64,000 nt of DNA. Origin: Methanolacinia petrolearia DSM 11571. GTDB taxonomy: Archaea > Halobacteriota > Methanomicrobia > Methanomicrobiales > Methanomicrobiaceae. A program made the translations under genes and the position numbers. The DNA lies in contig NC_014507.1 of the NCBI RefSeq assembly GCF_000147875.1, positions 2,418,001-2,482,000 on the forward strand, read 5' to 3'. Of the stretch, positions 24,459 through 64,000 are shown in pieces (the stretch's first letter is position 1; each line of letters begins with the position of its first letter). The notes below the pieces were generated by a model that saw only the letters and a program-made list of their open reading frames with translations, made no database searches and was not told the origin of the DNA.

Positions 24459-24590
24459 AAAAAAAGTGTTCACCTTTTTAACATATAATGCTTTATTATT
24501 AGATCTTGTTAGGTTTTTAATATTAACTTTGTCAACTTAAACAGGAATGACAAAAAAGACAGTTGTTCCGGCTTTCAGCAGGTAAAAAAA

Positions 24591-31117: not shown

Positions 31118-31771
31118 TTAGCCCTTGATTGTTACAACTGCACGTGAAATCAGCGTTCCACTGGCCTTGTCGTTTACATCAAGGTAGAACGACTTTCCTA
31201 TGTTTTCCTGATTTACAAAGTCCAGTGCCCAGAAACTATCATCAGCGCTGGTAAGCTTTTCACCTGTATCTGAATCAAGGAACGTCCAGTGCGTACCGTC
31301 AAAATAATAGTCTCCATGACTTGAGTAAACAGTCTTCTGAAGTATCGTTGGTTCACAATTTGTGATATTTACGTAGAGCGTATCTCCAGGGTTGAAAGAA
31401 GATATTCCATAACCCCGGAAGCCACCAGTACTTGAGTTATAGGACATCACAGCCACACCATTTGAAGTAGTAACCGTTGCAAGATTTATTGCACTTGTTG
31501 ACATAGCTTCAAGATTCGGACCGAATGTGGGCCCGTTCTTAACCGTTATCAACATATCGGCAGTAGGAATTGCTTCTCCACCTGCGTGGATGATTGAGAG
31601 ACCTCTGGTTACGCTGAACTCACCCTGAATAGTTGCCTGTGGGGCTTTTGTCTGCCCTTCTGCAAAACCGCCTGCAAATCCGCTAACAACCGCCGCGATA
31701 ATGATTGTTACAACAAGCATTAACATGACACCTACGACGGGAGATACCGCTGAATCGTTATTTTTTATCAT
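31118..31771 (-). CDS. Archaeal type IV pilin, class B, lone pair
   Basis: A 217-residue pilin. MIKNNDS is followed by AVSPVVGVMLMLVVTII, the N-terminal signal and hydrophobic helix of archaeal type IV pilins, which a PibD-type peptidase should cut just before it. The mature part follows the class B pattern of this window: TKAPQATIQGEFSV, IIHAGGEAIPTADM, FGPNLEAM, SSFNPGDTLYVNITNC and ENIGKSFYLDVNDKASG. It has one cysteine. It starts 2 nt after the class A pilin gene stops, so the pair is co-transcribed. It probably forms part of a filament outside the cell. Confidence 0.88.
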   Translation of the reverse strand: MIKNNDSAVSPVVGVMLMLVVTIIIAAVVSGFAGGFAEGQTKAPQATIQGEFSVTRGLSIIHAGGEAIPTADMLITVKNGPTFGPNLEAMSTSAINLATVTTSNGVAVMSYNSSTGGFRGYGISSFNPGDTLYVNITNCEPTILQKTVYSSHGDYYFDGTHWTFLDSDTGEKLTSADDSFWALDFVNQENIGKSFYLDVNDKASGTLISRAVVTIKG

Positions 31772-31773
31772 AA

Positions 31774-32574
31774 TCAGTCCTCCACAGCAATATTGCTATT
31801 ATAAATCGCAGCACCTGTAGGCGTGTAGATAACTTTTACATTAACAGTATCTCCTGCACGAAGCTGTTCCCAGCCATACCCTAGTAATGCCTGAGTCGGA
31901 TCGGCCTGTCCTTCTTCATAGAGGCCCGAGGCATACTTATAAGCATAAAGTGTTTCACCATTGTAACCACTATCTGCAGGTTCTGACAATGCCCCAGCTA
32001 TTGCCTGCCCTGAATCAGATCCGTATGGATATGCAAACAGGTTCACACCCTCCTGTAATGTAAACTGCCCAAACCAACCTGGTTTCTGGTATGCATCAGC
32101 ACTCTTCCCCATTGGATCTGTCGGGTTTGTCTGATCGACTCCTGCTCCTATTCCAAAAGGCGCTGTAGACCAATTTGTCACTGTTTTTGTCTTCATACCC
32201 TGATAACAGATCACATTGGCACTGTTTGGAAGGCTCGTGTTTCCACCTGTAAAAGTATTACCATTAGAGATTGTCTTTTGTTGTTCCGTAAGACCAGGAT
32301 CAGTATTGTCCTTCATAGTTGTCGACCAGGATGTGACAATCTTCAGGTCAGTAGTACTGATTGGTTCACTTACGCCAAGTACCGAGGCCGTAAATCCGCT
32401 TCCTATGTAACTTCCCGTGTTTGCAATTGTAACATCCATGGAAAGCGTCGGAGACTTCTCCTGTCCGGAAATAAGCCCTCCTGCAAAACCGCTCACAACC
32501 GCCGCGATGATAATCGTCACAACAAGCATCAGCATGACGCCCACGACGGGTGAGACCGCATCTTCGTTTTTCAT
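31774..32574 (-). CDS. Archaeal type IV pilin, class A, lone pair
   Basis: A 266-residue pilin beginning MKNEDAVSPVVGVMLML. The start at 32574 is preferred because GGTGA lies about 6 nt upstream and homologues begin here; the reading frame stays open for 35 codons further upstream. The class A body is seen in SPTLSMDVTIANTGSYIGSGF, VLGVSEPISTTDLKIVTSW and, near the end, LLGYGWEQLRAGDTVNVKVIYTPTG. Several N-x-S/T sequons are present. It is the first gene of a class A-class B pair, the same order as in the two big cassettes. Confidence 0.88.
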   Translation of the reverse strand: MKNEDAVSPVVGVMLMLVVTIIIAAVVSGFAGGLISGQEKSPTLSMDVTIANTGSYIGSGFTASVLGVSEPISTTDLKIVTSWSTTMKDNTDPGLTEQQKTISNGNTFTGGNTSLPNSANVICYQGMKTKTVTNWSTAPFGIGAGVDQTNPTDPMGKSADAYQKPGWFGQFTLQEGVNLFAYPYGSDSGQAIAGALSEPADSGYNGETLYAYKYASGLYEEGQADPTQALLGYGWEQLRAGDTVNVKVIYTPTGAAIYNSNIAVED

Positions 32575-32805
32575 ACATTCACCATACATATGATGCACTA
32601 CAGCACCATGATCACCATATTTGTAAAGATTGCTACTTAATATTCGGCTAAAGTAAATTAAATTATATTGATTAATCATCTTATAGTAGACTGAGATGTT
32701 TAACCATTAAAAAAAAAGCTCATTTTTCCGATCATAACCAGCTACAGACCCCGATCAATCTCATAAGAAGATCAGTCAGGTGAACAGGTCCGGAGGTGTG
32801 AAAAT

Positions 32806-33761: not shown

Positions 33762-34547
33762 CTATTCATCGCGCGGAATGCAGATCTTATGAGTACGGTT
33801 GACATTCTCGTAGTCTTCGATACATACACTCACGCCATACACATCCCTGATCAGATCGGGAGTCATGACATCCTCGGGAGGACCGTCCGCTATTACCTTC
33901 CCTCCCTGGATCATCAGAACGCGGTTTGCATAGAGAAATGCATGATCCGGATTATGGGTGGAAAGAATCACGATATACCCGTCATTTGCAAGATTCACAA
34001 TCCTTCTCATCACCCTCCACTGGTTTCCGTAGTCCAGGTTAGCGGTCGGCTCGTCCATGATCAGTATCTTCGCCTTCTGGACAAGTGCACGAGCGATAAG
34101 TGCAAGCTGCCGTTCCCCCCCGGAGATTTCCCCGTAACCCGCATTTTTCAGGTGGGCGATTCCGAGACTCTTCATCGCCTCATACGCCTCGTCGACATGC
34201 TGCTGCTTCGGCTCGGAGAGGATACTGATCTGGTTCGTAAGCCCCATAAGGACGACATCCAGAACAGTGAAATTGAAGACAGGAAAAGTCGACTGCGGAA
34301 TATATGCAATCTTCTTTGCAATCTGCTTGTGATCGAGTGTCTTTATATCAGCTCCTTCCAGAAAAACTGAGCCGGTATAATTCCTGAGAAACCCGAGAAT
34401 GCAGCGAAACATCGTGCTCTTCCCAACCCCGTTAGGTCCCAGAACTGCAAGAAGGTCTCCATCCTTTGCAGAAAACGATACATCACATAATACATCCCTG
34501 AGATTTTTTTCGTAGGAAAACGTCAGATTTTCAACCTCAAGTGTCAT
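33762..34547 (-). CDS. ABC transporter ATPase of the FecE/BtuD family
   Basis: A 261-residue ATPase with Walker A LGPNGVGKST near residue 36, Q-loop IPQSTFPVFNF, signature EISGGERQLALIARAL, Walker B ILIMDEPTANLD and H-loop LSTHNPDHAF. This is the subfamily that powers import of iron-siderophores, cobalamin, haem or, in MolBC, molybdate. Its ATG overlaps the permease stop by 4 nt. No binding protein is adjacent; the one at 23244-24458 is the likely partner. Its last codons are duplicated at 32806-32829. Confidence 0.9.
   Translation of the reverse strand: MTLEVENLTFSYEKNLRDVLCDVSFSAKDGDLLAVLGPNGVGKSTMFRCILGFLRNYTGSVFLEGADIKTLDHKQIAKKIAYIPQSTFPVFNFTVLDVVLMGLTNQISILSEPKQQHVDEAYEAMKSLGIAHLKNAGYGEISGGERQLALIARALVQKAKILIMDEPTANLDYGNQWRVMRRIVNLANDGYIVILSTHNPDHAFLYANRVLMIQGGKVIADGPPEDVMTPDLIRDVYGVSVCIEDYENVNRTHKICIPRDE
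33763..33786 (-). repeat. 24-bp direct repeat inside the 3' end of the ATPase gene
   Basis: Identical to 32806-32829 and in the same orientation. It codes for the C-terminal ICIPRDE of the ATPase. See the partner copy for the match and its reach. Confidence 0.65.
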
Positions 34548-35596
34548 GATCGCCTCCCGTTGACAATCAAAAGATATGCAAAGATCGGTCCGCCGACGAA
34601 TGCAGTAAGGATTCCCAGAGGAACCTCGATCGATGCCATCGTGCGTGCAAAATCATCGACCAGGAGGAGGAAACCACCACCCATAAAGATAGATGCCGGA
34701 ATGATCATCCTGTAATCATACCCGAAGACCATCCTGCAGAAATGCGGAATAACAAGACCTACCCACCCGATTATCCCCGAGATTGCCACGGCAACCGCAG
34801 TGACAAGCGTTGCGCATACGATAACGACAACACGCAGAAGCCTGGTATTGACCCCCATGCTCTTCGCCTCGTCCTCGCCGAGAGTCAGTATGTTCAGCCT
34901 CCATTTAAGGAGAACAAGCGGGATCAGTCCGGCAATAATCAGCGGTCCGGCATAAAAAACATCGGACATCGTTGCGGCCGAGAGGCTCCCCATGAGCCAG
35001 TAGGTTATTGCCGGAAGTTGTTCCGTCGTATCGGCGATCAGCTTGATATAGGAAAGAGAAGCCGAAAACAGACTTCCTACAAGAATACCTGCAAGAACCA
35101 TCCCCAAAATCGGAGACCCTTTGGTAAGCCGGCTTATGCAATATGCGACACCGACCGCGGTGATAGCGCCTGTAAATGCAAAAATCGTAACAGCACTGCT
35201 TCCCAGGGAGAGATAAATTGCAAGCGATGCCCCGAAACCCGCACCTGCCGATGCACCGAGAATGTCGGGGGAGACCAGCGGATTCTGAAACATTCCCTGG
35301 TATGCTGCACCTGCAGTAGATAAAGCTGCACCGACAAGCAATGCTGCGAGGATTCTTGGAAGGCGGATATTCATCACGACACTGTTCATCGCATAATCCC
35401 ATGTTTCTTCAATAGGAGATGCGTTTATTATCGAGAGAATATTTGAAATGAGAATCATCACAACATCGGGCATGCTGATGGAAAAACGCCCGACTCCAAG
35501 CGAAAACAGGGCACAGAAAAAGACTGCGGCAACAAGGATCACAAACCTGAACCGGTAATTCGGAAGTATTCTCTCATTATTGTCGGGATCGCTCAT
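34544..35596 (-). CDS. ABC transporter permease of the FecCD/BtuC family
   Basis: A 350-residue permease with about ten hydrophobic segments. Family motifs include LPRILAALLVGAALSTAGAAYQGMFQNPLVSPDILGASAGAG near residues 75-115, GEDEAKSMGVNTRLLR (the coupling helix region) and GIIGWVGLVIPHFCRMVFGYD. The ATG at 35596 is used because the longer frame begins with a TTG lacking a ribosome-binding site. It makes the membrane channel for a metal chelate or oxyanion. It is followed by its ATPase gene with a 4-nt overlap. Confidence 0.9.
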   Translation of the reverse strand: MSDPDNNERILPNYRFRFVILVAAVFFCALFSLGVGRFSISMPDVVMILISNILSIINASPIEETWDYAMNSVVMNIRLPRILAALLVGAALSTAGAAYQGMFQNPLVSPDILGASAGAGFGASLAIYLSLGSSAVTIFAFTGAITAVGVAYCISRLTKGSPILGMVLAGILVGSLFSASLSYIKLIADTTEQLPAITYWLMGSLSAATMSDVFYAGPLIIAGLIPLVLLKWRLNILTLGEDEAKSMGVNTRLLRVVVIVCATLVTAVAVAISGIIGWVGLVIPHFCRMVFGYDYRMIIPASIFMGGGFLLLVDDFARTMASIEVPLGILTAFVGGPIFAYLLIVNGRRS

Positions 35597-35683
35597 AAAA
35601 TGCAATAAGATGTTGGGTAATTAGTTAAATAACTCATAAAGTTAAATGAACATGATTACAACAACAATAGTGTCCGGATTTAA

Positions 35684-36683: not shown

Positions 36684-36699
36684 TTGGCCTGTCGGCCAA
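36684..36699 (+). promoter_or_regulatory. Leader hairpin before pilin A1, cassette 1
   Basis: TTGGCC-TGTC-GGCCAA, a perfect 6-bp stem with a 4-nt loop ending 11 nt before the ATG. Cassette 2 has the same structure with a compensated base pair (C-G in place of T-A at the stem foot). It could influence translation of the first pilin. Confidence 0.5.
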
Positions 36700-36710
36700 A
36701 GGGAATTAAC

Positions 36711-37484
36711 ATGAATTTTCTAAAGAAAGAACCGGGGCATAGCGAAGCGGCTGTGTCACCCGTTGTCGGTGTAATGCTGATGCTGGTTGTCACCATCATC
36801 ATTGCAGCGGTAGTAAGCGGTTTTGCAGGCGGTCTGGTAGGAGGAACCGATCAAAAGGCCCCGTTGCTTACATTGGATGTAAAGATTTCAAACACCGGAA
36901 CCTACATAGGAAGCGGATTTTCGGCAACCGTTACAAGTGTCAGCGATCCCATACCCACCAAGGATATAAAGATCGCGACTTCCTGGAGAGTTAAGGACAG
37001 TAATACCAGCGATATTACTTCAGGGGGAAACACTTCAACGCCTCTTGTTGCCAATGTCAACAGCCCTGAGATAGAAGGAACTTCGCTCATTAAGAGTAAT
37101 GCACCGTACGGGTACGGTCCTGGTGTGAATTCTTCATCAGGCGCACAGTCCCTGACTAATCCTTTCGACAAACCTGATCAGCAGTTCGGAAACTATTCCC
37201 TGGTCCAGGGGACAGGACTCGTTGCATTCGCTTATGGCAGCAACTCGGAAAAAGCGATCGGTTCGTCAACAGGTTTGAGTGATGACGGCGGTTACGGCGT
37301 AGTTACGGATTATGAATATATTTCCGACGGTTACTTTGGGACCGGAGCACTTGACGCCGCACAGGCAGTACTTGGAACAAACTGGGAAAAACTGAGAGTA
37401 GGTGACACAGTGAACGTCAAGGTAATTCATATTCCGACCGGGAAAGTGATCTTTGAAAAGGATGTCGCAGTTACGGAGGGCTAA
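36711..37484 (+). CDS. Type IV pilin A1, cassette 1
   Basis: A 257-residue class A pilin. MNFLKKEPGHSEA precedes AVSPVVGVMLMLVVTII, the signal and hydrophobic helix; a PibD-type peptidase should cut just before it. The ATG at 36711 is chosen because the cassette 2 homologue begins here and a hairpin lies upstream; an in-frame TTG at 36684 is inside that hairpin. The mature part has LLTLDVKISNTGTYIGSGF, VTSVSDPIPTKDIKIATSW and LGTNWEKLRVGDTVNVKVIHIPTG. It has no cysteine and several N-x-S/T sequons. It is the first gene of the cassette, 2 nt before B1. Confidence 0.9.
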   Translation: MNFLKKEPGHSEAAVSPVVGVMLMLVVTIIIAAVVSGFAGGLVGGTDQKAPLLTLDVKISNTGTYIGSGFSATVTSVSDPIPTKDIKIATSWRVKDSNTSDITSGGNTSTPLVANVNSPEIEGTSLIKSNAPYGYGPGVNSSSGAQSLTNPFDKPDQQFGNYSLVQGTGLVAFAYGSNSEKAIGSSTGLSDDGGYGVVTDYEYISDGYFGTGALDAAQAVLGTNWEKLRVGDTVNVKVIHIPTGKVIFEKDVAVTEG

Positions 37485-37486
37485 TC

Positions 37487-38095
37487 ATGGTATTTAAATT
37501 AAATAGCGAAGCGGTTTCACCTGTTGTTGGCGTTATGATGATGCTTGTCGTAACCATCATCATAGCAGCGGTGGTTTCGGCTTTTGCTGGCAGTTCGATG
37601 GACAGCCAGCAGACAGCACCGCAGGCGACTATCCAAGGAAAATTCAGCATAGGGACAGGCATGGAGATCATTCATATGGGCGGAGATGCTCTTGCAACCT
37701 ATGATCTCGTGTTCACTGTAAGAAACAGTCATGTATTCGGCCCGAACCTTGAGCAGGTGACTGCACAGATCATCGATAAGACACTAATTATTGACAGCCG
37801 GGGAAGGCCGCTTGATTACGGGGACGGCAGTACAAATGTTACATCATTTAAATCCGGGGATACCCTTTACATCAATTCTTCATCCATAAGGTGCGATTTG
37901 CTTCAGCCAATAGTCGTCCCGGATGATTATACCGATAATCTCGGAACCGACGGCTACAGTTATACCGGAGATAACGAAGAGTTCTGGGGTCTGTGTTTTA
38001 AAAATAACGACAACATAGGCAACACCTTCTATCTGGATATAAGCGACAAAAACGGGAATCTCATCTGCAGAAGTAAGGTAACGATTACTTCGTAA
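37487..38095 (+). CDS. Type IV pilin B1, cassette 1
   Basis: A 202-residue class B pilin: MVFKLNSE, AVSPVVGVMMMLVVTII, then the class B body APQATIQGKFSIGTGMEIIHMGG, LVFTVRNSHVFGPNLEQV, FKSGDTLYINSSSIRCDLLQP and NNDNIGNTFYLDISDKNGNLICRSKV. Three cysteines lie in the mature part (RCDLLQP, LCFKN, LICRSK) and are kept in the cassette 2 homologue, which suggests a role such as disulfide bonding. A GGAGG site overlaps the end of A1. It is likely an outer-face filament subunit paired with A1. Confidence 0.9.
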   Translation: MVFKLNSEAVSPVVGVMMMLVVTIIIAAVVSAFAGSSMDSQQTAPQATIQGKFSIGTGMEIIHMGGDALATYDLVFTVRNSHVFGPNLEQVTAQIIDKTLIIDSRGRPLDYGDGSTNVTSFKSGDTLYINSSSIRCDLLQPIVVPDDYTDNLGTDGYSYTGDNEEFWGLCFKNNDNIGNTFYLDISDKNGNLICRSKVTITS

Positions 38096-38103
38096 CGGGG
38101 GAA

Positions 38104-38889
38104 ATGCGGATGTTAATAAAAAATGATCAGGCGGTATCTCCTGTTGTAGGTGTAATGCTGATGCTCGTCGTCGTCATCATAATCGCAACAGTAGTCAGCG
38201 GTTTTGCAGGCGGCCTTGTTGCAGGAAACAGCCAGAAATCTCCAACTCTTTCCATGGATGTTAAGATTTCCAATTCGGGAACGTGGACGAACAGCGGTTT
38301 TTCTGCGATTGTGACAGGGGTCAGCGAACCAATCCAGACAAGCGATCTCAAGATCATCACATCGTGGAAGACCAGGATGAAATACAACTACGGTACTGCA
38401 AATGACGAGTTAAGACTCGTTACAAACGGAACGGTTTTCACAGGCGGCAATACGACTGCAGGAAAGGTGGCCAACGTCTTTGAGCCGTCGATTGCTACGG
38501 CCGGTTTAAATGTAGCGAGCATCGCGCCATACGGTTCCGGAATGGCGACAGCTCCGGGAGAATCGGCAGTATCCGGAAATTTCCTGACACCATATAAGGT
38601 TCCCGAGTGGCAGTTCGGCAATTACACGCTGACAACCGGTGTAAGCATGAGCGCAAAGCCTTACGGCGGTATGCACGACGGAACAGGAAATGCGTATACG
38701 AGCGGTTATGGAGTTGATTCTCTTTTTGCATACACTTCGGACAGCGACGCTTATACGGATCCCATGCAGGCTGTACTCGGTTACGGATGGGAAGAGCTAA
38801 GATCGGGAGATACGGTCTCCGTGAAGGTCATCTTTGTACCGACCGGGAAGACGATCTTTTCAAAGGATGTCTCAGTTGTGGAGGGCTGA
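38104..38889 (+). CDS. Type IV pilin A2, cassette 1
   Basis: A 261-residue class A pilin. It starts MRMLIKNDQAVSPVVGVMLML; an alternative ATG lies two codons later. The mature body reads SPTLSMDVKISNSGTWTNSGF, VTGVSEPIQTSDLKIITSWK and, near the end, LGYGWEELRSGDTVSVKVIFVPTG. There is no cysteine; N-x-S/T sites such as NTT and NYT are present. It sits 8 nt after B1 and 3 nt before B2, so all are in one operon. Homologue in cassette 2: 44648-45373. Confidence 0.9.
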   Translation: MRMLIKNDQAVSPVVGVMLMLVVVIIIATVVSGFAGGLVAGNSQKSPTLSMDVKISNSGTWTNSGFSAIVTGVSEPIQTSDLKIITSWKTRMKYNYGTANDELRLVTNGTVFTGGNTTAGKVANVFEPSIATAGLNVASIAPYGSGMATAPGESAVSGNFLTPYKVPEWQFGNYTLTTGVSMSAKPYGGMHDGTGNAYTSGYGVDSLFAYTSDSDAYTDPMQAVLGYGWEELRSGDTVSVKVIFVPTGKTIFSKDVSVVEG

Positions 38890-38892
38890 AAT

Positions 38893-39507
38893 ATGAGAGA
38901 TAATAATTCAGGAGTCTCCCCTGTCGTGGGGGTTATGATGATGCTTGTCGTGACAATCATTATCGCAGCCGTAGTGTCGGCTTTTTCAGGGGGCCTAACC
39001 AGCGGGCAGACAAAAGCTCCACAGGCAAACATCAAGGGAACTTTCAGCGTATCCGAAGGCATGACCATCTCTCATGCAGGCGGAGACTCTCTCGCAACAA
39101 AAGACCTTATATTCACCATCCGTGACGGTGACACATTCGGGCCGAATCTCGAGTCATCAACTGCACAGACGCTTGATATGACTACAATAAATGTAAATAC
39201 GCCCGACAGGGGGTCTGGTCAGATGAGGACGGTCGACGGTGCTTTTTACATGACCTCGTTCAACTCGGGCGACACCGTTACCATTGACCCGGATGACTGC
39301 ACATGTAATATTCTTCAGCCAAATGTAGCACCGACGGATTTTGAGGACAATGTTGCAGCTGACGGCTATACGTATACGGGAACCCAGACTGCTTCATGGG
39401 CATACTGCATCAGGAACCAGAACAGCATCGGCAAAAGCTTCATACTCGAGGTGAGCGATACGGCAGGTCACCTGATCTCGACAAACAAGGTGTTGATCAC
39501 CACATGA
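38893..39507 (+). CDS. Type IV pilin B2, cassette 1
   Basis: A 204-residue class B pilin: MRDNNSG, VSPVVGVMMMLVVTII, then APQANIKGTFSVSEGMTISHAGG, LIFTIRDGDTFGPNLESS, FNSGDTVTIDPDDCTCNILQP and IRNQNSIGKSFILEVSDTAGHL. Cysteines fall in DDCTCN and AYCIRN, as in its cassette 2 homologue. The ATG follows A2 after 3 nt. It is probably partnered with A2 in the filament. Homologue: 45377-46003. Confidence 0.9.
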   Translation: MRDNNSGVSPVVGVMMMLVVTIIIAAVVSAFSGGLTSGQTKAPQANIKGTFSVSEGMTISHAGGDSLATKDLIFTIRDGDTFGPNLESSTAQTLDMTTINVNTPDRGSGQMRTVDGAFYMTSFNSGDTVTIDPDDCTCNILQPNVAPTDFEDNVAADGYTYTGTQTASWAYCIRNQNSIGKSFILEVSDTAGHLISTNKVLITT

Positions 39508-39542
39508 TGATCTCATTTTTTGATTTAAAGGAGGGTTAAATT

Positions 39543-40502
39543 ATGAAGAGCAAAATTAAAAAGAATCTTCCTGCCTGCATGCTGTCTTATGAGCACAGGA
39601 GAGAATCTGCGGTATCTCCTGTTGTCGGAGTCATGCTGATGCTTGTCGTGACGATTATCATCGCGGCGGTTGTGAGCGGTTTTGCAGGAGGGCTTATTGA
39701 AAACGGCGCCCAGAAGACTCCATCACTTACTATGGATGTCAAAATCACAAATTCCGGCACATACAGAGGGAGCGAGTTCTCTGCAACCGTTACAGGAGTC
39801 AGCGAACCAATCCAGACAAGCAATCTCAAGATCATCACTTCATGGACAACAACGGTAAAGACGAATACCTATATTAAGAGTAGTGGAGGCACAGAGATCA
39901 ATGGTACCGGCTGCATCCTCAGCCTGCCGCTTGGAACAGTCTATCACGGCGGTACGGAATGCATTCCGGGTGTTTCAAATTCATATACACAAAAAACAGC
40001 AAAAAGCGTAGCGCCTTATGGATTTGGTCCGGGAGTAACCAATACGACCACCTCTGATATGGGAAATTACATGTACAACGGTCCTATCATTCCGATGTAT
40101 AACTGGCAGTTCTTTTCTGTAACCCATTTCGGAAACTACAGCCTTGAGCAGGGCACAGTTATGCTCGCCGAGGCAGGCGGACGTTGCATATATTACCCAG
40201 TAACAGGTGGTATTCCTGACACTTTTAATATGGGAGGTTATGGTACCATGACATACCTAAATGGAGAGTATGTAGCTCACACATATCATTACAAAACCGG
40301 AAACGTCTATGGTGTTTACACCGGCGATGAAACTGTGCCAATGGATATTATCGCCGACGGAGGACAGATCGACGGCATGCAGGCCGTCCTTGGCTGTGGC
40401 TGGGAAAATCTCAGGGGCGGCGATGTCGTAAACGTAAAGGTTGTCTACACGCCTTCAGGAAAAACTATCTTCGACCAGGACGTGGTGGTGGACTACTCAT
40501 GA
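39543..40502 (+). CDS. Type IV pilin A3, cassette 1 (cysteine-rich class A)
   Basis: A 319-residue class A pilin, larger than A1 and A2. Its leader MKSKIKKNLPACMLSYEHRRES is longer than usual and is followed by AVSPVVGVMLMLVVTII. The body has SLTMDVKITNSGTYRGSEF, VTGVSEPIQTSNLKIITSW and LGCGWENLRGGDVVNVKVVYTPSG. Four mature-part cysteines are visible (TGCILS, TECIPG, GRCIYY, LGCGWE), unlike A1 and A2. AAAGGAGGG lies just before the ATG. The stop overlaps the B3 start by 4 nt (ATGA), so A3 and B3 are tightly coupled. Confidence 0.9.
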   Translation: MKSKIKKNLPACMLSYEHRRESAVSPVVGVMLMLVVTIIIAAVVSGFAGGLIENGAQKTPSLTMDVKITNSGTYRGSEFSATVTGVSEPIQTSNLKIITSWTTTVKTNTYIKSSGGTEINGTGCILSLPLGTVYHGGTECIPGVSNSYTQKTAKSVAPYGFGPGVTNTTTSDMGNYMYNGPIIPMYNWQFFSVTHFGNYSLEQGTVMLAEAGGRCIYYPVTGGIPDTFNMGGYGTMTYLNGEYVAHTYHYKTGNVYGVYTGDETVPMDIIADGGQIDGMQAVLGCGWENLRGGDVVNVKVVYTPSGKTIFDQDVVVDYS

Positions 40503-41158
40503 GATCTATCATAACAAATTACAGGAATCATGAAGCGGTATCACCTGTCATCGGCATTATGCTGATGCTTGTCGTAACGATCATAATCGCCGCAGTTGTT
40601 TCGGCATTCGGCTCGGGACTTGTGGACAGCCAGTCCAAGGCATTGCAGGCAAAGATCGGCGCAACTTTCAGCGTTTCCCAGGGAATGACAATCACCCATG
40701 ATGGAGGTGACGCAATACCCCTTGACGATCTGATCTTCATAACGAACAACGGAGACGGCTTCGGGCCGAATGCCCAGAAAGTTACGACACAGCAGATTGA
40801 TTTGAATCTCATCACTGACAAAGAAGGGAATCCGGTTTTCTCAACAAACAGTATCGGTGGCAAGTCATCCTTCAACCCGGGAGATACTCTCTATATCACC
40901 CCTTACAACTGCACATGCAGTCTTCTGCAGTATTCAGTTTCAGCACCTTTATTTGAAAATGTAGGAGATTCCCATTGTATGAGTGAGGGGGTATGGGACT
41001 GGGAGAACTACCCGACTACATACGAAGGAAATTCCTGCGATGCATTATGGAAGCTCTGCTTCAGGAATCCTGACAATGTAGGGAAGGTGTTCATATTCAA
41101 GGCAAGCGACAGGGACGGAAATATAATCTCGACGTGCGAGGTGAAGATCACATCGTAA
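40499..41158 (+). CDS. Type IV pilin B3, cassette 1
   Basis: A 219-residue class B pilin: MRSIITNYRNHEAVSPVIGIMLML, then SAFGSGLVDSQ, AKIGATFSVSQGMTITHDGGD, IFITNNGDGFGPNAQKV, SFNPGDTLYITPYNCTCSLLQ and NPDNVGKVFIFKASDRDGNIIS. It carries six cysteines in the mature part (CTC, HCM, SCD, LCF, TCE). Its start overlaps A3 by 4 nt. It is the last pilin of the cassette; a hairpin and then the thioredoxin-CcdA gene follow. Homologue: 46960-47535. Confidence 0.9.
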   Translation: MRSIITNYRNHEAVSPVIGIMLMLVVTIIIAAVVSAFGSGLVDSQSKALQAKIGATFSVSQGMTITHDGGDAIPLDDLIFITNNGDGFGPNAQKVTTQQIDLNLITDKEGNPVFSTNSIGGKSSFNPGDTLYITPYNCTCSLLQYSVSAPLFENVGDSHCMSEGVWDWENYPTTYEGNSCDALWKLCFRNPDNVGKVFIFKASDRDGNIISTCEVKITS

Positions 41159-41224
41159 CTGACCATCAACTAAACAATGCCTGATAACGGCTGCTATGGA
41201 AAAGGGGGCAGGGAAAGGGGTGGG

Positions 41225-41265
41225 TATAAGGCGTGATATGTCCTTTCAGGGCATTCCGTCTTATA
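41225..41265 (+). promoter_or_regulatory. Hairpin between last pilin and thioredoxin-CcdA gene, cassette 1
   Basis: TATAAG pairs with CTTATA at the base and ATGTCC with GGGCAT (one G-U) around a 5-nt loop. The same structure, with a better inner stem, lies at 47603-47642. There is no U-run after it, so it is not a plain archaeal terminator. Confidence 0.45.
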
Positions 41266-41423
41266 ACAGACACCGCAAATTCACCATACATTCACAAAAA
41301 GCATCACAGATTAACTAATTGTTAATCACAGAATCAAATCTTCTCCGGGCCTTTCCCGGGGAAGCCGGTGTCTTTCCATTATTAAAACTGAAAACTAAAG
41401 AGAATTGATACGGGAAGTCTCAA

Positions 41424-42605
41424 ATGCTGAAGACAAAGTACAATATTGCCCTATTTTTAATTTTAATCCTTTTCACGCAGGCTGTTTATGCTTTGGACGG
41501 AGATGCAAATTTTTCATATGACCACACAGGAGTATCACAGGAAGATCAGATCAGGCAACTGATTTCAACTGCAAATACGACTGTAACCGTATTTTACAGC
41601 AGCCATTGCAGTTCGTGCAGCAGGGTAATACCCTTCATCGAGAACCTCTCGGAGAGTTATCCGGAGATCGAAGTGCAATATTATGACCTGTACAATTCCA
41701 CGGAAAACCTGACTCTCATGTATGAATTCGGGGTCCGCTACAACATGCACTACGTATCTTACCCTATCCTCTTTACCGGGGACACCGTGGTCCTGCCCGG
41801 AATGTCACCGATAATGGAGAATGCCGGGGATGTGTTTGACTCTCTCGATAAAGGACTGATTCCTGACACGGATTACGAAAAACAATGGCTGACAGAAGAT
41901 GAATATTCCCAGGAAGAAGACCTGGGAGAGGACATACTGACAGATCTGTCGATCATCGCAGCCGCCGGACTTTTAGACGGAATTAATCCCTGTGCATTTG
42001 CAGTCCTCGTTTTTCTTCTGGTCTCCCTCATGGCATCGGGCCCGGGAAAAAAAGTCCTTATTTCGGGACTGCTCTATACATCTGCAGTATTCATCTTTTA
42101 CGTCCTGGCCGGACTCGGGATAATGTGCATTGTGGGTTTTTCAGGTTTATCGTTCTATTTCTCGATATTTGCCGGCATTGTTGCGATAACGGCCGGACTG
42201 ATCAATATTACCGACGCATTACAAAAGAACCCGGAGGCGTCCCTATCGATCCCTGCCTCTTCAAAAGGAGTCATCGGCCGGTTCATCGCCAAAGCAACAC
42301 TTCCCTCCTCGTTTTTCCTCGGAATTATTGTCGGAATGTTCGAACTCCCGTGTACCGGGGGGATCTATCTTGCAATAATCAGCCTGTTTTCATCGGAGAT
42401 GACATTCTATGAAGGAGTTCCATACCTGATTTTGTACAATTTTTTCTTTGTGATGCCCCTGCTTCTGATCACATTCGCAGTCGCTCTCGGGCTTTCACCG
42501 AAGTTCGTCGATTTTGCAAGAATAAAATACAGGAATAAACTCAGGCTCGTAATGGGAATAGTTCTCATCATAATCGGTGCATTCGTCGTTTGGTGGCAGA
42601 TTTAA
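41424..42605 (+). CDS. Thioredoxin-CcdA fusion membrane protein
   Basis: A 393-residue protein. A signal peptide (NIALFLILILFTQAVYA) is followed by an outer thioredoxin-like domain at residues about 40-140 with FYSSHCSSCSRVIPFIE, a CxxC redox site. Six hydrophobic segments follow from about residue 180, with the CcdA/DsbD cysteines in DGINPCAFAVLV and MFELPCTGGIYL. Such proteins carry electrons across the membrane to outer thiols. It closes a cassette of cysteine-containing pilins, so disulfide control of the pilins is a fair inference. A defective copy is at 47806-48277. Confidence 0.88.
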   Translation: MLKTKYNIALFLILILFTQAVYALDGDANFSYDHTGVSQEDQIRQLISTANTTVTVFYSSHCSSCSRVIPFIENLSESYPEIEVQYYDLYNSTENLTLMYEFGVRYNMHYVSYPILFTGDTVVLPGMSPIMENAGDVFDSLDKGLIPDTDYEKQWLTEDEYSQEEDLGEDILTDLSIIAAAGLLDGINPCAFAVLVFLLVSLMASGPGKKVLISGLLYTSAVFIFYVLAGLGIMCIVGFSGLSFYFSIFAGIVAITAGLINITDALQKNPEASLSIPASSKGVIGRFIAKATLPSSFFLGIIVGMFELPCTGGIYLAIISLFSSEMTFYEGVPYLILYNFFFVMPLLLITFAVALGLSPKFVDFARIKYRNKLRLVMGIVLIIIGAFVVWWQI

Positions 42606-43213: not shown

Positions 43214-43230
43214 CTGGCCTTCATGGCCAG
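43214..43230 (+). promoter_or_regulatory. Leader hairpin before pilin A1, cassette 2
   Basis: CTGGCC-TTCAT-GGCCAG, a perfect 6-bp stem with a 5-nt loop ending 10 nt before the ATG. The foot base pair differs from cassette 1 but pairing is kept, and the loop differs in length. Confidence 0.5.
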
Positions 43231-43240
43231 AGGATTTAAC

Positions 43241-44014
43241 ATGGATTTTCTAAAGAAAGAACCGGGGCATAGCGAAGCGGCTGTGTCACCCGTTGTCGGT
43301 GTAATGCTGATGCTGGTTGTTACCATCATCATTGCAGCAGTAGTAAGCGGTTTTGCCGGCGGCCTGGTTGGGGGAACAAGTCAAAGTGCTCCGCTGCTTA
43401 CAATGGATGTAAAGATTTCAAACACAGGGACCTACATTGGAAGCGGATTTTCGGCAACGGTTACAAGTGTCAGCGATCCGATCCAGACAAAGGATATAAA
43501 GATCGTAACATCCTGGAGAGTTACGGACAGCAATTCCGGTGACACTACTTCAGGGGGAAACACTTCAATGCCTCTTGTTGCCAATGTCAACAGCCCTGAG
43601 ATAGAAGGAACTTCGCTCATTAAGAGTAATGCACCATACGGGTATGGTTCGGGTGTGAACTCTTCATCAGACGCACAGTCACTGACCAATCCTTTCGATA
43701 AACCCGATCAGCAGTTCGGAAACTATTCCCTGATCCAGGGAACAGGACTCGTTGCATTCGCTTATGGCAGCAACTCGGAAAAAGCGATCGGTTCTTCAAC
43801 AGGTCTGAGTGATGACGGCGGTTACGGCGTAGTTACGAATTATGAATATACTTCCGGCGGTTACTTTGGGACCGGAGCGCTTGATGCCGCAACAGCAGTG
43901 CTTGGTTCTGGCTGGCAAGCACTGAGAGCCGGAAATACAGTGAATGTCAAGGTAATTCATATTCCAACCGGGAAAGTGATCTTCGAAAAGGATGTCGCAG
44001 TAACGGAGGGCTAA
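43241..44014 (+). CDS. Type IV pilin A1, cassette 2
   Basis: A 257-residue class A pilin, the same length as its cassette 1 homologue and very similar: MDFLKKEPGHSEAAVSPVV, LLTMDVKISNTGTYIGSGF and LGSGWQALRAGNTVNVKVIHIPTG. An in-frame ATG six codons earlier overlaps the leader hairpin, so 43241 is preferred. In place of the usual GDT of the end motif it has GNT. There is no cysteine; N-x-S/T sequons are present. It is the first pilin gene of cassette 2, 3 nt before B1. Confidence 0.9.
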   Translation: MDFLKKEPGHSEAAVSPVVGVMLMLVVTIIIAAVVSGFAGGLVGGTSQSAPLLTMDVKISNTGTYIGSGFSATVTSVSDPIQTKDIKIVTSWRVTDSNSGDTTSGGNTSMPLVANVNSPEIEGTSLIKSNAPYGYGSGVNSSSDAQSLTNPFDKPDQQFGNYSLIQGTGLVAFAYGSNSEKAIGSSTGLSDDGGYGVVTNYEYTSGGYFGTGALDAATAVLGSGWQALRAGNTVNVKVIHIPTGKVIFEKDVAVTEG

Positions 44015-44017
44015 ATC

Positions 44018-44632
44018 ATGGAATTAAAATCTGATAACAATGCAGTTTCACCGGTCGTCGGTGTTATGATGATGCTTGTCGTAACAATCATCATTGCAGC
44101 GGTAGTTTCAGCCTTTGCAGGAAGTTCGGTGGGCAGCCAGCAGGTAGCACCGCAGGCAACGATCCAGGGGACATTCAGCATTGGCTCGGGAATGGAGATC
44201 ATTCACATGGGCGGAGATGCTCTTGCAACAAATGATCTTGTGTTTACGGTCAGAAACAGTCCTGTGTTTGGCGCGAATCTCGAACAGGTGACTGCACAGA
44301 TTATCGATAAGACATTAATTATCGATAGTCAGGAAAGACCACTGGATACCGGAGATGGCAGCACATCTGTTACATCGTTTAAAGCCGGAGATACCCTGTA
44401 CATCAATTCATCGAGTATAAGATGCGATCTGCTCCAGCCACTAATCGTCCCGAATGATTATTCTGATCATCTTGGAAACGACGGCTACAGCTATAACAAT
44501 TCTGGTGACTATCAGGAACAATGGAATCTATGCTTTAAAAACAACGACAACATAGGAAACACCTTCTATCTCGATGTCAGCGACAAGAGCGGGAATCTCA
44601 TCTGCAGAAGCAAGGTCACGATAACTGCGTGA
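44018..44632 (+). CDS. Type IV pilin B1, cassette 2
   Basis: A 204-residue class B pilin: MELKSDNN, AVSPVVGVMMMLVVTII, APQATIQGTFSIGSGMEIIHMGG, FKAGDTLYINSSSIRCDLLQP and NNDNIGNTFYLDVSDKSGNLICRSKV. The three cysteines of the cassette 1 homologue (37487-38095) are kept in the same places. The gene lies 3 nt after A1 and 15 nt before A2. Its likely place is the filament, beside A1. Confidence 0.9.
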   Translation: MELKSDNNAVSPVVGVMMMLVVTIIIAAVVSAFAGSSVGSQQVAPQATIQGTFSIGSGMEIIHMGGDALATNDLVFTVRNSPVFGANLEQVTAQIIDKTLIIDSQERPLDTGDGSTSVTSFKAGDTLYINSSSIRCDLLQPLIVPNDYSDHLGNDGYSYNNSGDYQEQWNLCFKNNDNIGNTFYLDVSDKSGNLICRSKVTITA

Positions 44633-44647
44633 TCAGGGGGAGAAGGG

Positions 44648-45373
44648 ATGACGATGAAGAATGATCAGGCTGTGTCCCCTGTTGTCGGTGTCATGCTGAT
44701 GCTTGTCGTAACGATAATCATCGCAACTGTTGTCAGCGGGTTCGCAGGCGGTCTTGTTGCAGGAGGCAGCCAAAAGTCTCCGGACCTTGCCATGGATGTC
44801 AAGATTACTAATTCAGGGACTTGGGCAAACAGCGGTTTTTCCGCGATTGTAACCGGGGTCAGCGATCCGATCCAGACAAGCGACCTTAAAATAGTCACTT
44901 CATGGAAGAAGAACGATGCTATAGGCGGCAATATTTCCGTAGGAAACGTGGTAAATGTTATTGAGCCGTCCATTGTTTCATCAGGCCTGAACGTGGCAAG
45001 TACCGCGCCTTATGGTTTCGGAATGGCGACCGTAGCAGGAGAATCGGCGATTAGCGGAAGTTCCCTGAGACCTAACAACGCTTCCGAGCGTTGGTTCGGC
45101 AATTACACACTTGCACCGGGCGTGAGCATGAGTGCACAGCCGTTCGGCGGCATGAATGACGGAACAGGACAGGCGTATACAAGCGGCTACGGCATAGAAA
45201 ACTCTTATGAATATACCGGGTTTGACAGCGATAAGTACACGGATCCAATGCAGGCAGTGCTTGGTTCTGGCTGGGAAGACCTAAGGACTGGAGATACCGT
45301 TTCGGTAAAGGTGATCTTCGTACCGAGCGGGAAGACGATCTTTGCAAAGGACGTCACCGTCCGGGGGGGCTGA
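44648..45373 (+). CDS. Type IV pilin A2, cassette 2
   Basis: A 241-residue class A pilin, about 20 residues shorter than the cassette 1 homologue because the stretch after ITSWK is trimmed. It begins MTMKNDQAVSPVVGVMLML and ends LGSGWEDLRTGDTVSVKVIFVPSG, with SPDLAMDVKITNSGTWANSGF near the start of the mature part. No cysteine is present. It starts after GGGGGAGAAGGG and stops 3 nt before B2. Confidence 0.9.
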   Translation: MTMKNDQAVSPVVGVMLMLVVTIIIATVVSGFAGGLVAGGSQKSPDLAMDVKITNSGTWANSGFSAIVTGVSDPIQTSDLKIVTSWKKNDAIGGNISVGNVVNVIEPSIVSSGLNVASTAPYGFGMATVAGESAISGSSLRPNNASERWFGNYTLAPGVSMSAQPFGGMNDGTGQAYTSGYGIENSYEYTGFDSDKYTDPMQAVLGSGWEDLRTGDTVSVKVIFVPSGKTIFAKDVTVRGG

Positions 45374-45376
45374 GAT

Positions 45377-46003
45377 ATGAGCGAGAATAATTCTGCGGTC
45401 TCTCCTGTTATCGGCGTCATGCTGATGCTTGTCGTGACGATTGTTATAGCGGCGGTTGTCTCTGCTTTTTCCGGCGGATTCATCGACGGACAGACTAAAG
45501 CTCCTCAGGCGAATGTCAAAGGAACTTTCAGCATATCCGGGGGCATGACTATCACCAATGCAGGCGGCGACTCGCTTGCAACAAAAGACCTCATATTCAC
45601 AATCCGTGATGGTCCCACTTTCGGGCCGAACCTCGAGTCGTCGACTGCACAGACATTGGATATGTCCACGATAATGGTAGACACTGACAGGAGTCAGACA
45701 TATGAGGATGGAGAGCCACAGCCAATGCTGACAACATGGGGAGTATACTTCATGGTATCGTTCAATCCGGGAGACACCGTTACTATTGAACCGGAAGACT
45801 GCACGTGCAATATTCTTCAGCCGAACGTTGCCCCTACTGACTTTGAGGAGTACCATGACGGCTACACATACGAAGGAACCCAGGCAGCAGCATGGGCGCA
45901 TTGTATCAGGAACCAGGACAGTATCGGCAAGAGCTTCATACTTGAAGTGAGTGACACGGAGGGTCACCTGATCTCAAAGAGTGATGTACTGATCACTGTA
46001 TGA
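45377..46003 (+). CDS. Type IV pilin B2, cassette 2
   Basis: A 208-residue class B pilin: MSENNSAVSPVIGVMLMLVV, APQANVKGTFSISGGMTITNAGG, FNPGDTVTIEPEDCTCNILQP and IRNQDSIGKSFILEVSDTEGHL. Cysteines of EDCTCN and AHCIRN match the homologue at 38893-39507. It lies 3 nt after A2 and 24 nt before A3, with AAGGAGG ahead of the next gene. Confidence 0.9.
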   Translation: MSENNSAVSPVIGVMLMLVVTIVIAAVVSAFSGGFIDGQTKAPQANVKGTFSISGGMTITNAGGDSLATKDLIFTIRDGPTFGPNLESSTAQTLDMSTIMVDTDRSQTYEDGEPQPMLTTWGVYFMVSFNPGDTVTIEPEDCTCNILQPNVAPTDFEEYHDGYTYEGTQAAAWAHCIRNQDSIGKSFILEVSDTEGHLISKSDVLITV

Positions 46004-46027
46004 GATTTATCTTTCAAGGAGGATCAA

Positions 46028-46963
46028 ATGATGAAAAAACTATTTAAATTCCAGGAATCCGACTGCGCTGTTTCTCCGGTCGTCGGCGTTATGCTGATGC
46101 TTGTCGTCACCATTATAATCGCGGCGGTTGTAAGTGGATTTGCAGGCGGACTAATTGACAGCGGTAGCCAGAAGACACCCACTCTCAGTATGGATGTCAG
46201 CATAAAAAACTCCGGCACATGCCACGGCAGTGGATTCTACGCACTGGTAACAGGTGTGAGCGAGCCTATCAATACAAGTGACCTGAAACTCATCACCTCA
46301 TGGACCACCACCGTGAAGAAGAATACGTATATCACTTCTTCTAATGGGGAAGCTACAGGTGTTGGCTGCATTCTTGGGCTGAATATAGGTACTGTATATC
46401 ATGGCGGAGCTGAAGTCCTGCCGGGTGTCTCCAACACTATGACTAAGTTGACATACACAGATGGAGGCGGAGTGGCCCCATTCGGGTCAGGTACCGGCGT
46501 AGAGGGAACCGTTCCTGCTAATAAGCACGCAAATTATGAAGAAACAGCTTATTTCGGAAATTACATTCTGGACATAGGCACTGTTATGGCAGCCGAACCT
46601 ATTGGGGAATGCCATAATACTTACTCCATGGTCGGAGGTTATCACGTGAGAAATAACATGGGTGATATCGCTATTAGTCCAAAGGCAGGAGGATATGGTC
46701 AAACGACTGGATTCCCACCCTCTTCCACCACTTTTTTGTACCAATACAAAGACGATAATAACGCCTTTGTGTACAAGGTATATACCGGTGAAGAAACTAC
46801 ACCTGCAGGCATCATTGCCGACGGCGGGCAGGTAGACAATATACAGGCCGTGCTCGGCTGCGGGTGGGAGAACCTGCGGAGCGGTGACACCGTGAACGTC
46901 AAGATTGTCTACATACCAAGCGGGAAGACGATATTCAATAAGGATGTTGTGGTGAGCGCATGA
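46028..46963 (+). CDS. Type IV pilin A3, cassette 2 (cysteine-rich class A)
   Basis: A 311-residue class A pilin, with MMKKLFKFQESDCAVSPVVG at the start and SLTMD replaced by TLSMDVSIKNSGTCHGSGF. The end is LGCGWENLRSGDTVNVKIVYIPSG. Cysteines are seen in SGTCHG, GVGCILG, GECHNT and LGCGWE, as well as one next to the expected cleavage site (SDCAVSP). The middle region differs strongly from the homologue at 39543-40502. The stop overlaps B3 by 4 nt. Confidence 0.9.
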   Translation: MMKKLFKFQESDCAVSPVVGVMLMLVVTIIIAAVVSGFAGGLIDSGSQKTPTLSMDVSIKNSGTCHGSGFYALVTGVSEPINTSDLKLITSWTTTVKKNTYITSSNGEATGVGCILGLNIGTVYHGGAEVLPGVSNTMTKLTYTDGGGVAPFGSGTGVEGTVPANKHANYEETAYFGNYILDIGTVMAAEPIGECHNTYSMVGGYHVRNNMGDIAISPKAGGYGQTTGFPPSSTTFLYQYKDDNNAFVYKVYTGEETTPAGIIADGGQVDNIQAVLGCGWENLRSGDTVNVKIVYIPSGKTIFNKDVVVSA

Positions 46964-47535
46964 AACCAAAATTAAGAAACGATGCGGTTTCACCTGTGAT
47001 CGGAATCATGCTGATGCTCGTAGTCACGATCATAATTGCCGCGGTCGTATCGGCATTCGGCTCGGGGATGATCGACAGCCAGGCCAAGACCCCACAGGCA
47101 AAGATCGGCGCGACGTTCAGTGTCTCGCAGGGCATGACCATCACCCATGACGGCGGGGATGCAATTCCTCTCGACAGTATCGTCTTTATCACCCAGCACG
47201 GACCAGGCTTCGGGCCGAGTACCGAGCCGTTCGCCGAGGTTCTGAACACAAGCATAATCGCCGATGAGGACGGGAACCAGGTGTTCCTCACCAGCAGTAC
47301 CGGCGGAAAGTCCTCTTTCAACCCGGGGGACACCCTGTATATCTCAACAGATAATTGCTCGATGGAAATGCTCCAGCCGGGACTATATAAAACCTCGAAA
47401 ACAAGTTTTTCCGGTGGCGCCATAACAGCTCTCAAGTACCAGAGAACCCAGAATGTCGGCAAGACCTTTATATTGAAGGTAAATGATAAGGACGGGAATC
47501 TCATCTCGACATGCGAGGTGAAGATCACATCGTAA
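46960..47535 (+). CDS. Type IV pilin B3, cassette 2
   Basis: A 191-residue class B pilin, about 28 residues shorter than the cassette 1 homologue. It reads MKPKLRNDAVSPVIGIMLML, SAFGSGMIDSQ, AKIGATFSVSQGMTITHDGGD, SFNPGDTLYISTDNCSMEMLQ and NVGKTFILKVNDKDGNLISTCEVKITS. Only two cysteines remain (DNCSM, STCEV), compared with six in the homologue. Its ATG overlaps the A3 stop by 4 nt. It closes the pilin series of cassette 2. Confidence 0.9.
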   Translation: MKPKLRNDAVSPVIGIMLMLVVTIIIAAVVSAFGSGMIDSQAKTPQAKIGATFSVSQGMTITHDGGDAIPLDSIVFITQHGPGFGPSTEPFAEVLNTSIIADEDGNQVFLTSSTGGKSSFNPGDTLYISTDNCSMEMLQPGLYKTSKTSFSGGAITALKYQRTQNVGKTFILKVNDKDGNLISTCEVKITS

Positions 47536-47602
47536 AAGAGTTTCATAAAACAATAACCAGCAATGCCGGCCGAAATTAGAAGGAAGAAGGGGCAGGGCCG
47601 GG

Positions 47603-47642
47603 TATAAGGGAAGGATGTCCGTAAGGGACATCCTGCCTTATA
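47603..47642 (+). promoter_or_regulatory. Hairpin between last pilin and thioredoxin-CcdA remnant, cassette 2
   Basis: TATAAGG pairs with CCTTATA, and inside it AGGATGTCC pairs perfectly with GGACATCCT around GTAAG, giving a 16-bp interrupted stem. It is the counterpart of 41225-41265. No U-run follows. Confidence 0.55.
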
Positions 47643-47805
47643 ATGACACCGCAAATTCACCATATATTCACTAAATAAGCACCATAGACTGACAAATTAT
47701 TGTGATTCCGAAATCAGTCTTATCCGGACATCTTTCCGAAGAAGCCGGTGTTTTTCCATTTTAAAACTGAAAATCCAGAAATACAAGTAATGTAAGATAT
47801 TTCAA

Positions 47806-48277
47806 ATGCAGAAAACTAAATTCCTTATCGCCTTATTCTTAATTTTAATCGTTTCCATCCAGGCCGTTCAGGCTTACGACGGCGATCAAAATATTTCACA
47901 GAATTACAGCCAGAAGGTTGCAGCTGCAAACACTACGGTAACCGTATTTTACAGCAGCCATTGCATTTCTTGCGACAGGGTAATACCATTCATCGAAAAC
48001 CTCACGGAAAGTTATCCGGAGATCGAAGTGAACTATCTATCTCGCAATAATCAGCCTGCTTTCATCGGAGATGGCATTCTATGAAGGAGTTCCATACCTG
48101 ATTTTGTACAATTTTTTCTTTGTGATGCCCCTGCTTCTGATCACATTCGCAGTCGCTCTCGGGCTTTCACCGAAGTTCGTCGATTTTGCAAGAATAAAAC
48201 ACAGGAATAAACTCAGGCTCGTAATGGGACTTGCTCTGATTATAATCGGTGCATTCGTCGTTTGGTGGCAGATTTAA
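47806..48277 (+). pseudogene. Thioredoxin-CcdA fusion gene remnant, cassette 2 (internal deletion)
   Basis: The first 76 codons match the intact gene at 41424-42605: signal peptide (LIALFLILIVSIQAVQA) and FYSSHCISCDRVIPFIE with its CxxC. After IEIEV the sequence jumps to the region coding for the last transmembrane segments (MAFYEGVPYLILYNFF to FVVWWQI), now in another frame. About 690 bp, including the end of the thioredoxin domain and both CcdA cysteines, are missing relative to the intact gene. The loss shifts the frame and stops the first part at 48084. It cannot make a working membrane redox protein; a short secreted CxxC protein is possible. Confidence 0.85.
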
Positions 48278-52647: not shown

Positions 52648-53061
52648 TCACCTCTTCAGGGGGCTTGGGCCCAGTTCTTTAACCGTCCTGACAACATCTT
52701 CCATGACCATACCCCACTTTGCACCTTCCGATGCTGATACAAATGTCATACGGATCCTGTTATCGTCGAGACCGATGTTCTTGAGCACGTTCTTGATAAG
52801 GAACATACGCTTTGCGCATTTGTAGTTGCCCTCAAGATAATGGCAGTCACCGAAGTGGCAGCCGGAGACAAGCACTCCGTCAGCTCCGTCCTGAAATGCC
52901 CTCATAATAAAGAGGGGGTCGACACGGCCCGTGCACATTACCCTGATAGCCCGAACATCTGTCGGGTACTGGATACGTGCACCGCCTGCAAGATCAGCAC
53001 CGGCGTAGGAACACCAGTTGCAGATGATTGCGATAATCTTAGGATTCCACTCGTCTCCCAT
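52648..53061 (-). CDS. mvhD: MvhD-type electron-transfer subunit, copy 1
   Basis: A 137-residue protein that carries a [2Fe-2S] cluster and passes electrons to HdrA. The cysteines are in ICNWCSYAGADLAGG, VRVMCTGRVDP-type segment (RVMCTGRVDP), GCHFGDCHYLEG and YKCAKR. There are no mvhA or mvhG hydrogenase genes nearby, so electrons may instead come from formate dehydrogenase or another donor, as in related methanogens. The protein is identical to that of copy 2 at 58766-59179. It starts where hdrA ends (1 nt apart) and precedes fwdD. Confidence 0.94.
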   Translation of the reverse strand: MGDEWNPKIIAIICNWCSYAGADLAGGARIQYPTDVRAIRVMCTGRVDPLFIMRAFQDGADGVLVSGCHFGDCHYLEGNYKCAKRMFLIKNVLKNIGLDDNRIRMTFVSASEGAKWGMVMEDVVRTVKELGPSPLKR

Positions 53062-55089: not shown

Positions 55090-55102
55090 TTCTTTTGCCT
55101 CC

Positions 55103-56008: not shown

Positions 56009-56010
56009 CT

Positions 56011-56595: not shown

Positions 56596-56608
56596 TTTTA
56601 GTCTCACC

Positions 56609-61207: not shown

Positions 61208-61220
61208 TTCTTTTGCCTCC

Positions 61221-62126: not shown

Positions 62127-62128
62127 CT

Positions 62129-62713: not shown

Positions 62714-62726
62714 TTTTAGTCTCACC

Positions 62727-63890: not shown

Positions 63891-64000
63891 AACTAACACT
63901 CCATGCTAAATCAGGCCTACCGGATGGCAAACAATGCAACAACCTCTAAAACGCATTATTTCAGCATCTCCAACTGCTGTTTTATTCCGACACACCTTTA
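63891..64000 (-). other. Upstream region of fwdF copy 2, cut by the window edge
   Basis: 110 bp with no reading frame that looks like a gene. It should hold the start of the leader or promoter of the second fwdF-hdr operon, unless fwdG or another gene lies beyond the edge. Confidence 0.4.

Follow-up and report, generated by a model that had tools for sequence, protein, structure and literature searches.

Does a methanogen whose pilins carry cysteines devote an enzyme to their thiols? This question is raised by a 64,000-nucleotide stretch of the Methanolacinia petrolearia genome (positions 2418001-2482000 of its single 2,843,290-base contig; hereafter the window), which encodes two tandem cassettes of six pilins. 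The first cassette is followed by a gene (41424-42605, forward strand, 393 codons) for a signal peptide and a thioredoxin domain fused to a DsbD/CcdA-like membrane domain (Trx-CcdA). We give roughly even chances to the reading that this gene encodes an envelope thiol reductase of a general family, which was recruited once to the cassette and aids its pilins. If the redox gene does serve the pilins, it would tie a reductive thiol enzyme to an archaeal type IV pilus.

One clade of redox genes behind six-pilin cassettes

Nine six-pilin cassettes were found, two each in the window, in a second genome of the genus (G060) and in another member of the family (G013), and one each in a genome of another family (G088) and in two Methanoregula genomes (G173, G160). 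Six of the nine are followed by an intact Trx-CcdA gene and one by a remnant, whereas the two Methanoregula cassettes have methyltransferase genes in its place. Each intact gene shares its strand with the cassette that precedes it, a six-pilin set with cysteines, and lies 192-334 bp past the final pilin; together the six form one clade (support 95/88 in a tree of 29 chosen rows, 88 in a tree of 110 rows) that nests inside sequences from the window's own family. This linkage spans three genera and two families, and a search at E 1e-90 across 232 genomes of the order matched eight genomes and returned no further close relatives. The B1 pilin of G088 is 70% identical to that of the window even though the genome belongs to another family; the simplest reading is that the whole unit of cassette and gene was transferred between families. 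A second Trx-CcdA paralogue in the M. petrolearia genome, 45% identical to the first, stands without pilins.

The remnant behind the second cassette of the window (47806-48277, forward strand) is a pseudogene that has lost about 0.68 kb in an internal deletion with a frame change. Identity with the intact copy is 96% in the 3' part and 73% in the 5' part, as if the former had recently been converted. A hairpin of 17 pairs, three of them with changes on both sides, stands in the spacer that separates the final pilin from the redox gene (41222-41274, with a second copy at 47600-47650, both on the forward strand). This hairpin is present in the four Methanolacinia copies and absent in G013 and G088, and is perhaps a processing or expression element.

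Residues and predicted chemistry of the fusion protein

The original prediction described the gene behind the first cassette as a signal peptide, a thioredoxin domain with a CSSC motif and a CcdA-like electron carrier, and our analysis bears this out. The window protein has C62SSC65, a proline (Pro114) at the place of the cis-proline, and Cys190 and Cys310 in the membrane domain; from its place, Pro114 would take the cis form. Pro114, Cys190 and Cys310 are invariant in a census of 110 homologues (those of at least 250 aa at the loci fetched, part of the matches listed). The CxxC motif is present in 102 of them and the other eight have gaps at its place; in the only gap row checked, that of G173, a CEHC lies ahead of the called start. 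Profile comparison of the membrane domain with DsbD_TM gave 97.9% over 206 columns, with Cys190 and Cys310 aligned to the cysteines of the template's PC motifs; the profile held 17 rows, obtained from 25 loci, and some rows still start in the wrong frame.

Like DsbD/CcdA carriers (PF02683), the protein has this profile match, two invariant membrane cysteines at matching places, one in each of two membrane segments (TM1 and TM4), and several membrane segments as judged by hydropathy. Unlike them, it has its thioredoxin domain fused N-terminally, and no cytochrome c is encoded in the neighbourhood read. By analogy with the DsbD/CcdA family, electrons would flow outward, from cytoplasm to envelope, and Trx-CcdA would therefore be a reductase or isomerase. 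Opioid receptors among the PDB sequence matches to the membrane part were taken as composition artefacts; thioredoxins were also matched. Elsewhere in the family, a 526-aa homologue in G178 (f5; L102:4951-6531) stands beside what look by eye like hydrogenase-like genes and is preceded by a second thioredoxin-like gene.

Conserved cysteines in class B and A3 pilins

Both window cassettes lie on the forward strand and alternate two pilin classes in the order A1-B1-A2-B2-A3-B3 (ABABAB). The first (36684-41158) begins with A1 (36684-37484, with an ATG at 36711 as the likelier start), which corrects the start at 37487 implied by the original prediction, and continues with B1 (37487-38095), A2 (38104-38889), B2 (38893-39507), A3 (39543-40502) and B3 (40499-41158). 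The second (43223-47535) consists of A1' (43223-44014), B1' (44018-44632), A2' (44648-45373), B2' (45377-46003), A3' (46028-46963) and B3' (46960-47535). A lone pair on the reverse strand comprises B0 (31118-31771) and A0 (31774-32679). The eight class A/B pilins tested, those of the first cassette and the lone pair, match Pilin_N (PF07790) with 57.5 to 77.3 bits against a cut-off of 25.2 (A1, 64.6 bits), and those of the second cassette match it in a whole-genome search.

As predicted, all six class B pilins of the cassettes and both A3 pilins carry cysteines, whereas the mature parts of A1, A1', A2 and A2' have none. Class B pilins have two to six: three each in B1 (mature positions 128, 162 and 186), B1', B2 and B2', six in B3 and two in B3'. 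The mature parts of A3 and A3' have four each, B0 has one, and so does the mature part of A0. Conservation between cassettes, also foreseen, extends beyond the window: two sites in B1 (window motifs CDLLQP and LCFKN), those in the CTC and CIRN motifs of B2 and three in A3 are invariant in all nine cassettes. The B3 cysteines vary among the nine and are mostly lost in two.

The six cassette B pilins are richer in cysteine than the other Pilin_N proteins of the same genome (compared with the 28 of 34 that had a fetched and recognised locus; p = 6e-5, one-sided Mann-Whitney). Across all genomes, 28 class B rows from six-pilin cassettes (from 27 genes, one of which is represented by a fragment as well) are richer than 55 other class B rows, with p = 7e-10 when kinship is ignored. 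Cysteines at the two class B sites also tend to occur together. Among 83 class B rows, chosen non-randomly by likeness to B1 among the matches listed and including a few cut or near-duplicate sequences, 33 have both, 30 neither, 17 the first only and 3 the second only (p = 2.5e-7). The association weakens to p = 0.003 to 0.006 when clusters at 70, 60 or 55% contribute a single row each, and it is not significant at 50% clustering (p = 0.16).

The cysteine pair was seen in nine genomes, all of which also carry a Trx-CcdA homologue with both domains somewhere, and in none of nine genomes without a homologue; a further 12 genomes carry a homologue without the pair (p = 0.03). A third B1 cysteine (LICRS) is present in six of the seven B1 pilins with the gene or its remnant behind them (the seventh, that of G088, has a cysteine two residues on) and in neither of the two B1 pilins without; with so small a sample this is only a hint of a link to the redox gene.

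Two other ideas about these cysteines were rejected. Haem attachment fails on the motif, as CxxCH occurs in none of the 14 window pilins, and cysteine load does not account for the presence of the gene, with 10-21 cysteines in cassettes with the gene or remnant versus 14 and 14 in those without. Structure prediction gave a fair model for B1 (pLDDT 80.9) and a weak one for A3 (pLDDT 69.5), whose fold matches archaeal filament proteins at Z of at most 6.0, mixed with unrelated beta sandwiches.

Proposed role and the case for a bystander

In the reading that we favour, cytoplasmic thiols would reduce the membrane pair Cys190/Cys310, which would reduce the protein's own outward thioredoxin domain, and this domain could then reduce or reshuffle disulfides of exported proteins. 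One Trx-CcdA lineage would have settled behind the ABABAB cassette, been duplicated together with it and come to reside in two methanogen families. The likeliest substrates would be the heads of the cysteine-bearing B and A3 pilins, where the enzyme may correct wrongly formed disulfides or maintain spare thiols in reduced form, whether ahead of assembly or following it. Trx-CcdA may help the pilins but would not be required by them.

Several observations weigh against this reading. Trx-CcdA homologues occur in at least 115 of 199 Methanomicrobiales genomes (E 1e-10), some as the membrane domain only, and just six of the 110 in our census immediately follow pilins encoded on their own strand. 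Another two have pilins at a distance of up to 7 kb on the opposite strand, 53 are at argCJB, eight at DUF4013/dcd and 41 elsewhere. The original prediction had proposed that the gene should follow only cysteine-containing pilin sets; all six pilin-linked genes do so, but the family at large does not, and it lies mostly beside unrelated genes, a distribution that the same prediction had named as counting against it.

The pilin sets likewise do not always come with the gene. The copy behind the second window cassette is broken, so that one pilin-linked gene at most serves both cassettes, and the two Methanoregula cassettes without the gene have similar cysteines, 14 each (10-21 in the others); both Methanoregula genomes carry a Trx-CcdA homologue elsewhere. 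Among the class B rows, 17 of 83 have a cysteine at the first site only, and 13 of these have a single cysteine in total (B0 and its relatives included), which makes a disulfide within the protein impossible.

Family assignment is also loose. PF02683 gave no match to the window protein up to E 1 and none in its genome at E 0.01, while homologues in G007, G088, G071 and G040 exceed the cut-off of that family. The window protein falls below every Pfam cut-off (PF14595, 22.7 of 25 bits; PF00085, 19.7 of 23.5 bits), and its first domain is therefore to be called thioredoxin-like and not filed in those families. Finally, searches of the genome at E 0.01 found neither VKOR nor a Thioredoxin_4-type DsbA (DsbB and PF01323-type DsbA were not searched), and a full disulfide system is therefore not in evidence.

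An alternative with some weight is that Trx-CcdA is a general envelope reductase which stands behind the pilins by chance, without being specifically tied to them. It would explain the many homologues at argCJB and DUF4013/dcd and the existence of cassettes without the gene, and the length of the spacer, together with the hairpin conserved in Methanolacinia, means that co-transcription is no given. However, the linkage has been kept in three genera and two families, in G060 and G013 it persists at each copy of the duplicated cassette, and the linked genes form one clade separate from the other paralogue of the M. petrolearia genome. A chance position is improbable on balance, though it deserves to be taken seriously.

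Class A/B pilins and importer genes

A different role for the cysteines is suggested by what surrounds the window pilins. On the reverse strand, a FecCD permease of a metal-complex-type importer (34544-35605; PF01032, 286 bits) lies between the lone pair and the cassettes, adjoined by an ABC ATPase (33762-34547; PF00005, 109 bits), and further away are a substrate-binding protein of the Peripla_BP_2 kind (23244-24473; PF01497, 38 bits) and a DUF364/DUF4213 protein, labelled 'putative heavy-metal chelation' in Pfam (25682-26458). Also near the pilins are a CobW-type GTPase and genes resembling a molybdate-type importer. This setting led us to examine other pilin loci for importers.

Importer genes, scored as FecCD, Peripla_BP_2, SBP_bac_5 and Dpp permeases, were present at 21 of 26 class A/B pilin loci (mostly 20 kb) versus 4 of 102 loci that surround Trx-CcdA genes and served as controls (mostly 15 kb; p = 1e-15), a comparison that is partly circular since queries were drawn from some of the same loci. 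Methyltransferases (14/26 versus 4/102) and FmdE-like genes (3/26 versus 0/102) were scored at the same loci. Twenty further class B loci were named before importer positions were seen, and 17 of them had FecCD or SBP_bac_5 no more than 15 kb away where 0.94 would be expected, 12 no more than 10 kb away (expected 0.70) and six no more than 5 kb away (expected 0.41), under a uniform null uncorrected for relatedness. In ten of the genomes concerned, an importer was within 15 kb of 10 of 11 class B loci, ten of which are shared with the twenty, versus 2 of 33 other pilin loci; the importer tie therefore appears special to this pilin class.

The nearness of metal-complex or peptide importers hints at a role for these pilins beyond ordinary adhesion. 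It suggests, short of demonstrating, that class A/B pilins take part in metal-complex uptake with their thiols kept reduced. Such pilin-like proteins might bind a metal or its complex through thiols, with Trx-CcdA reducing those thiols or aiding release, and a separate Trx-CcdA group of three has two members, those in G060 and G013, inside importer clusters of this kind. On the other hand, importers of the FecCD and SBP_bac_5 types are also used for cobalamin, haem, molybdate or peptides, and some class B pilins next to importers have no cysteine. No importer is in reach at 5 of the 26 loci, the six-pilin locus of G088 included, or at 3 of the 20, and a FecCD gene was present at two of six loci in the M. 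petrolearia genome first taken as other pilins, one of the two holding a class A pilin. As an account of the redox gene, metal-complex uptake is unlikely. The fuller proposal, that class A/B pairs of Methanomicrobiales form the surface part of metal-complex uptake, capture their cargo by thiols and hand it over to a FecCD/SBP_bac_5 importer, with Trx-CcdA keeping the thiols reduced in some lineages, is one that we doubt slightly more.

We nevertheless regard the tie of class A/B pilins to metal-complex or peptide/nickel importers as the stronger and testable result, and the one most worth following. It offers a functional lead for many methanogen pilins and raises the question of whether surface filaments serve methanogens in collecting scarce metals. 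At two loci (L041 in G060 and L045 in G013), FecCD, Peripla_BP_2, FmdE-like and methyltransferase genes cluster with class A/B pilins and another Trx-CcdA paralogue.

The dedicated disulfide system of the original prediction finds partial support. What stands of it is a conserved neighbour, recruited once as a single clade with its catalytic residues kept, beside pilins whose cysteines co-occur; what speaks against it is a family that lies mostly elsewhere, two of nine cassettes without the gene and the lack of a VKOR or Thioredoxin_4 match within the searches described. A complete system, in which the pilins need disulfides and Trx-CcdA is their dedicated catalyst, could draw on the co-occurring cysteines beside a thiol enzyme and on the existence of bacterial pilus-linked thiol enzymes, among them the TrbB family, but is highly improbable given that Trx-CcdA is of a reductive type, that two cassettes manage without it and that the same searches for its oxidising partners were negative.

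Comparison with known systems

The thiol-disulfide isomerase TrbB of F-type conjugative pili (TIGR02738) is, like Trx-CcdA, a thioredoxin-like envelope enzyme encoded beside pilus genes. They differ in that the TrbB system is not known to include a membrane electron carrier, its pilus is conjugative and not archaeal type IV, and the window protein scores 18.4 bits against a cut-off of 132. The pilus-linked thiol enzymes met in literature listings are bacterial, with no archaeal case among them.

For the pilins, the nearest structural relative is PDB 8fj5, a type IV pilin from Haloferax volcanii, which Foldseek ranks first for the B1 model (E 9e-4), and the window pilins likewise exceed the Pilin_N cut-off. 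They differ from it in their alternating class A/B sets with cysteines and longer chains, and the match has a TM-score of only 0.31/0.42. If the pilins act in uptake, the nearest model would be the Sulfolobus bindosome, made of substrate-binding proteins with pilin-like signals. In the bindosome the binding proteins themselves carry the signal, whereas here pilins and separate binding proteins stand side by side.

The main text of a census of archaeal pili, as far as it was available to us, names bindosome loci and has no mention of CcdA (PMC4858521). The part seen of an account of metal uptake by methanogens has no mention of pili (PMC10390477). None of the titles and abstract openings matched in open-licence literature describes what is reported here for the Trx-CcdA fusion, the pilin cysteines or the tie between pilins and importers.

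Other features of the window

Two runs of open reading frames near the end of the window (52648-57769 and 58766-63899) contain several frames that agree between the runs in length and in their first 70 residues; judged by eye, heterodisulfide-reductase-type genes seem to have undergone a large tandem duplication here. Nearer the start, two closely similar genes in tandem (11346-12782 and 12989-14425) have, also by eye, the look of amino-acid-type transporters.

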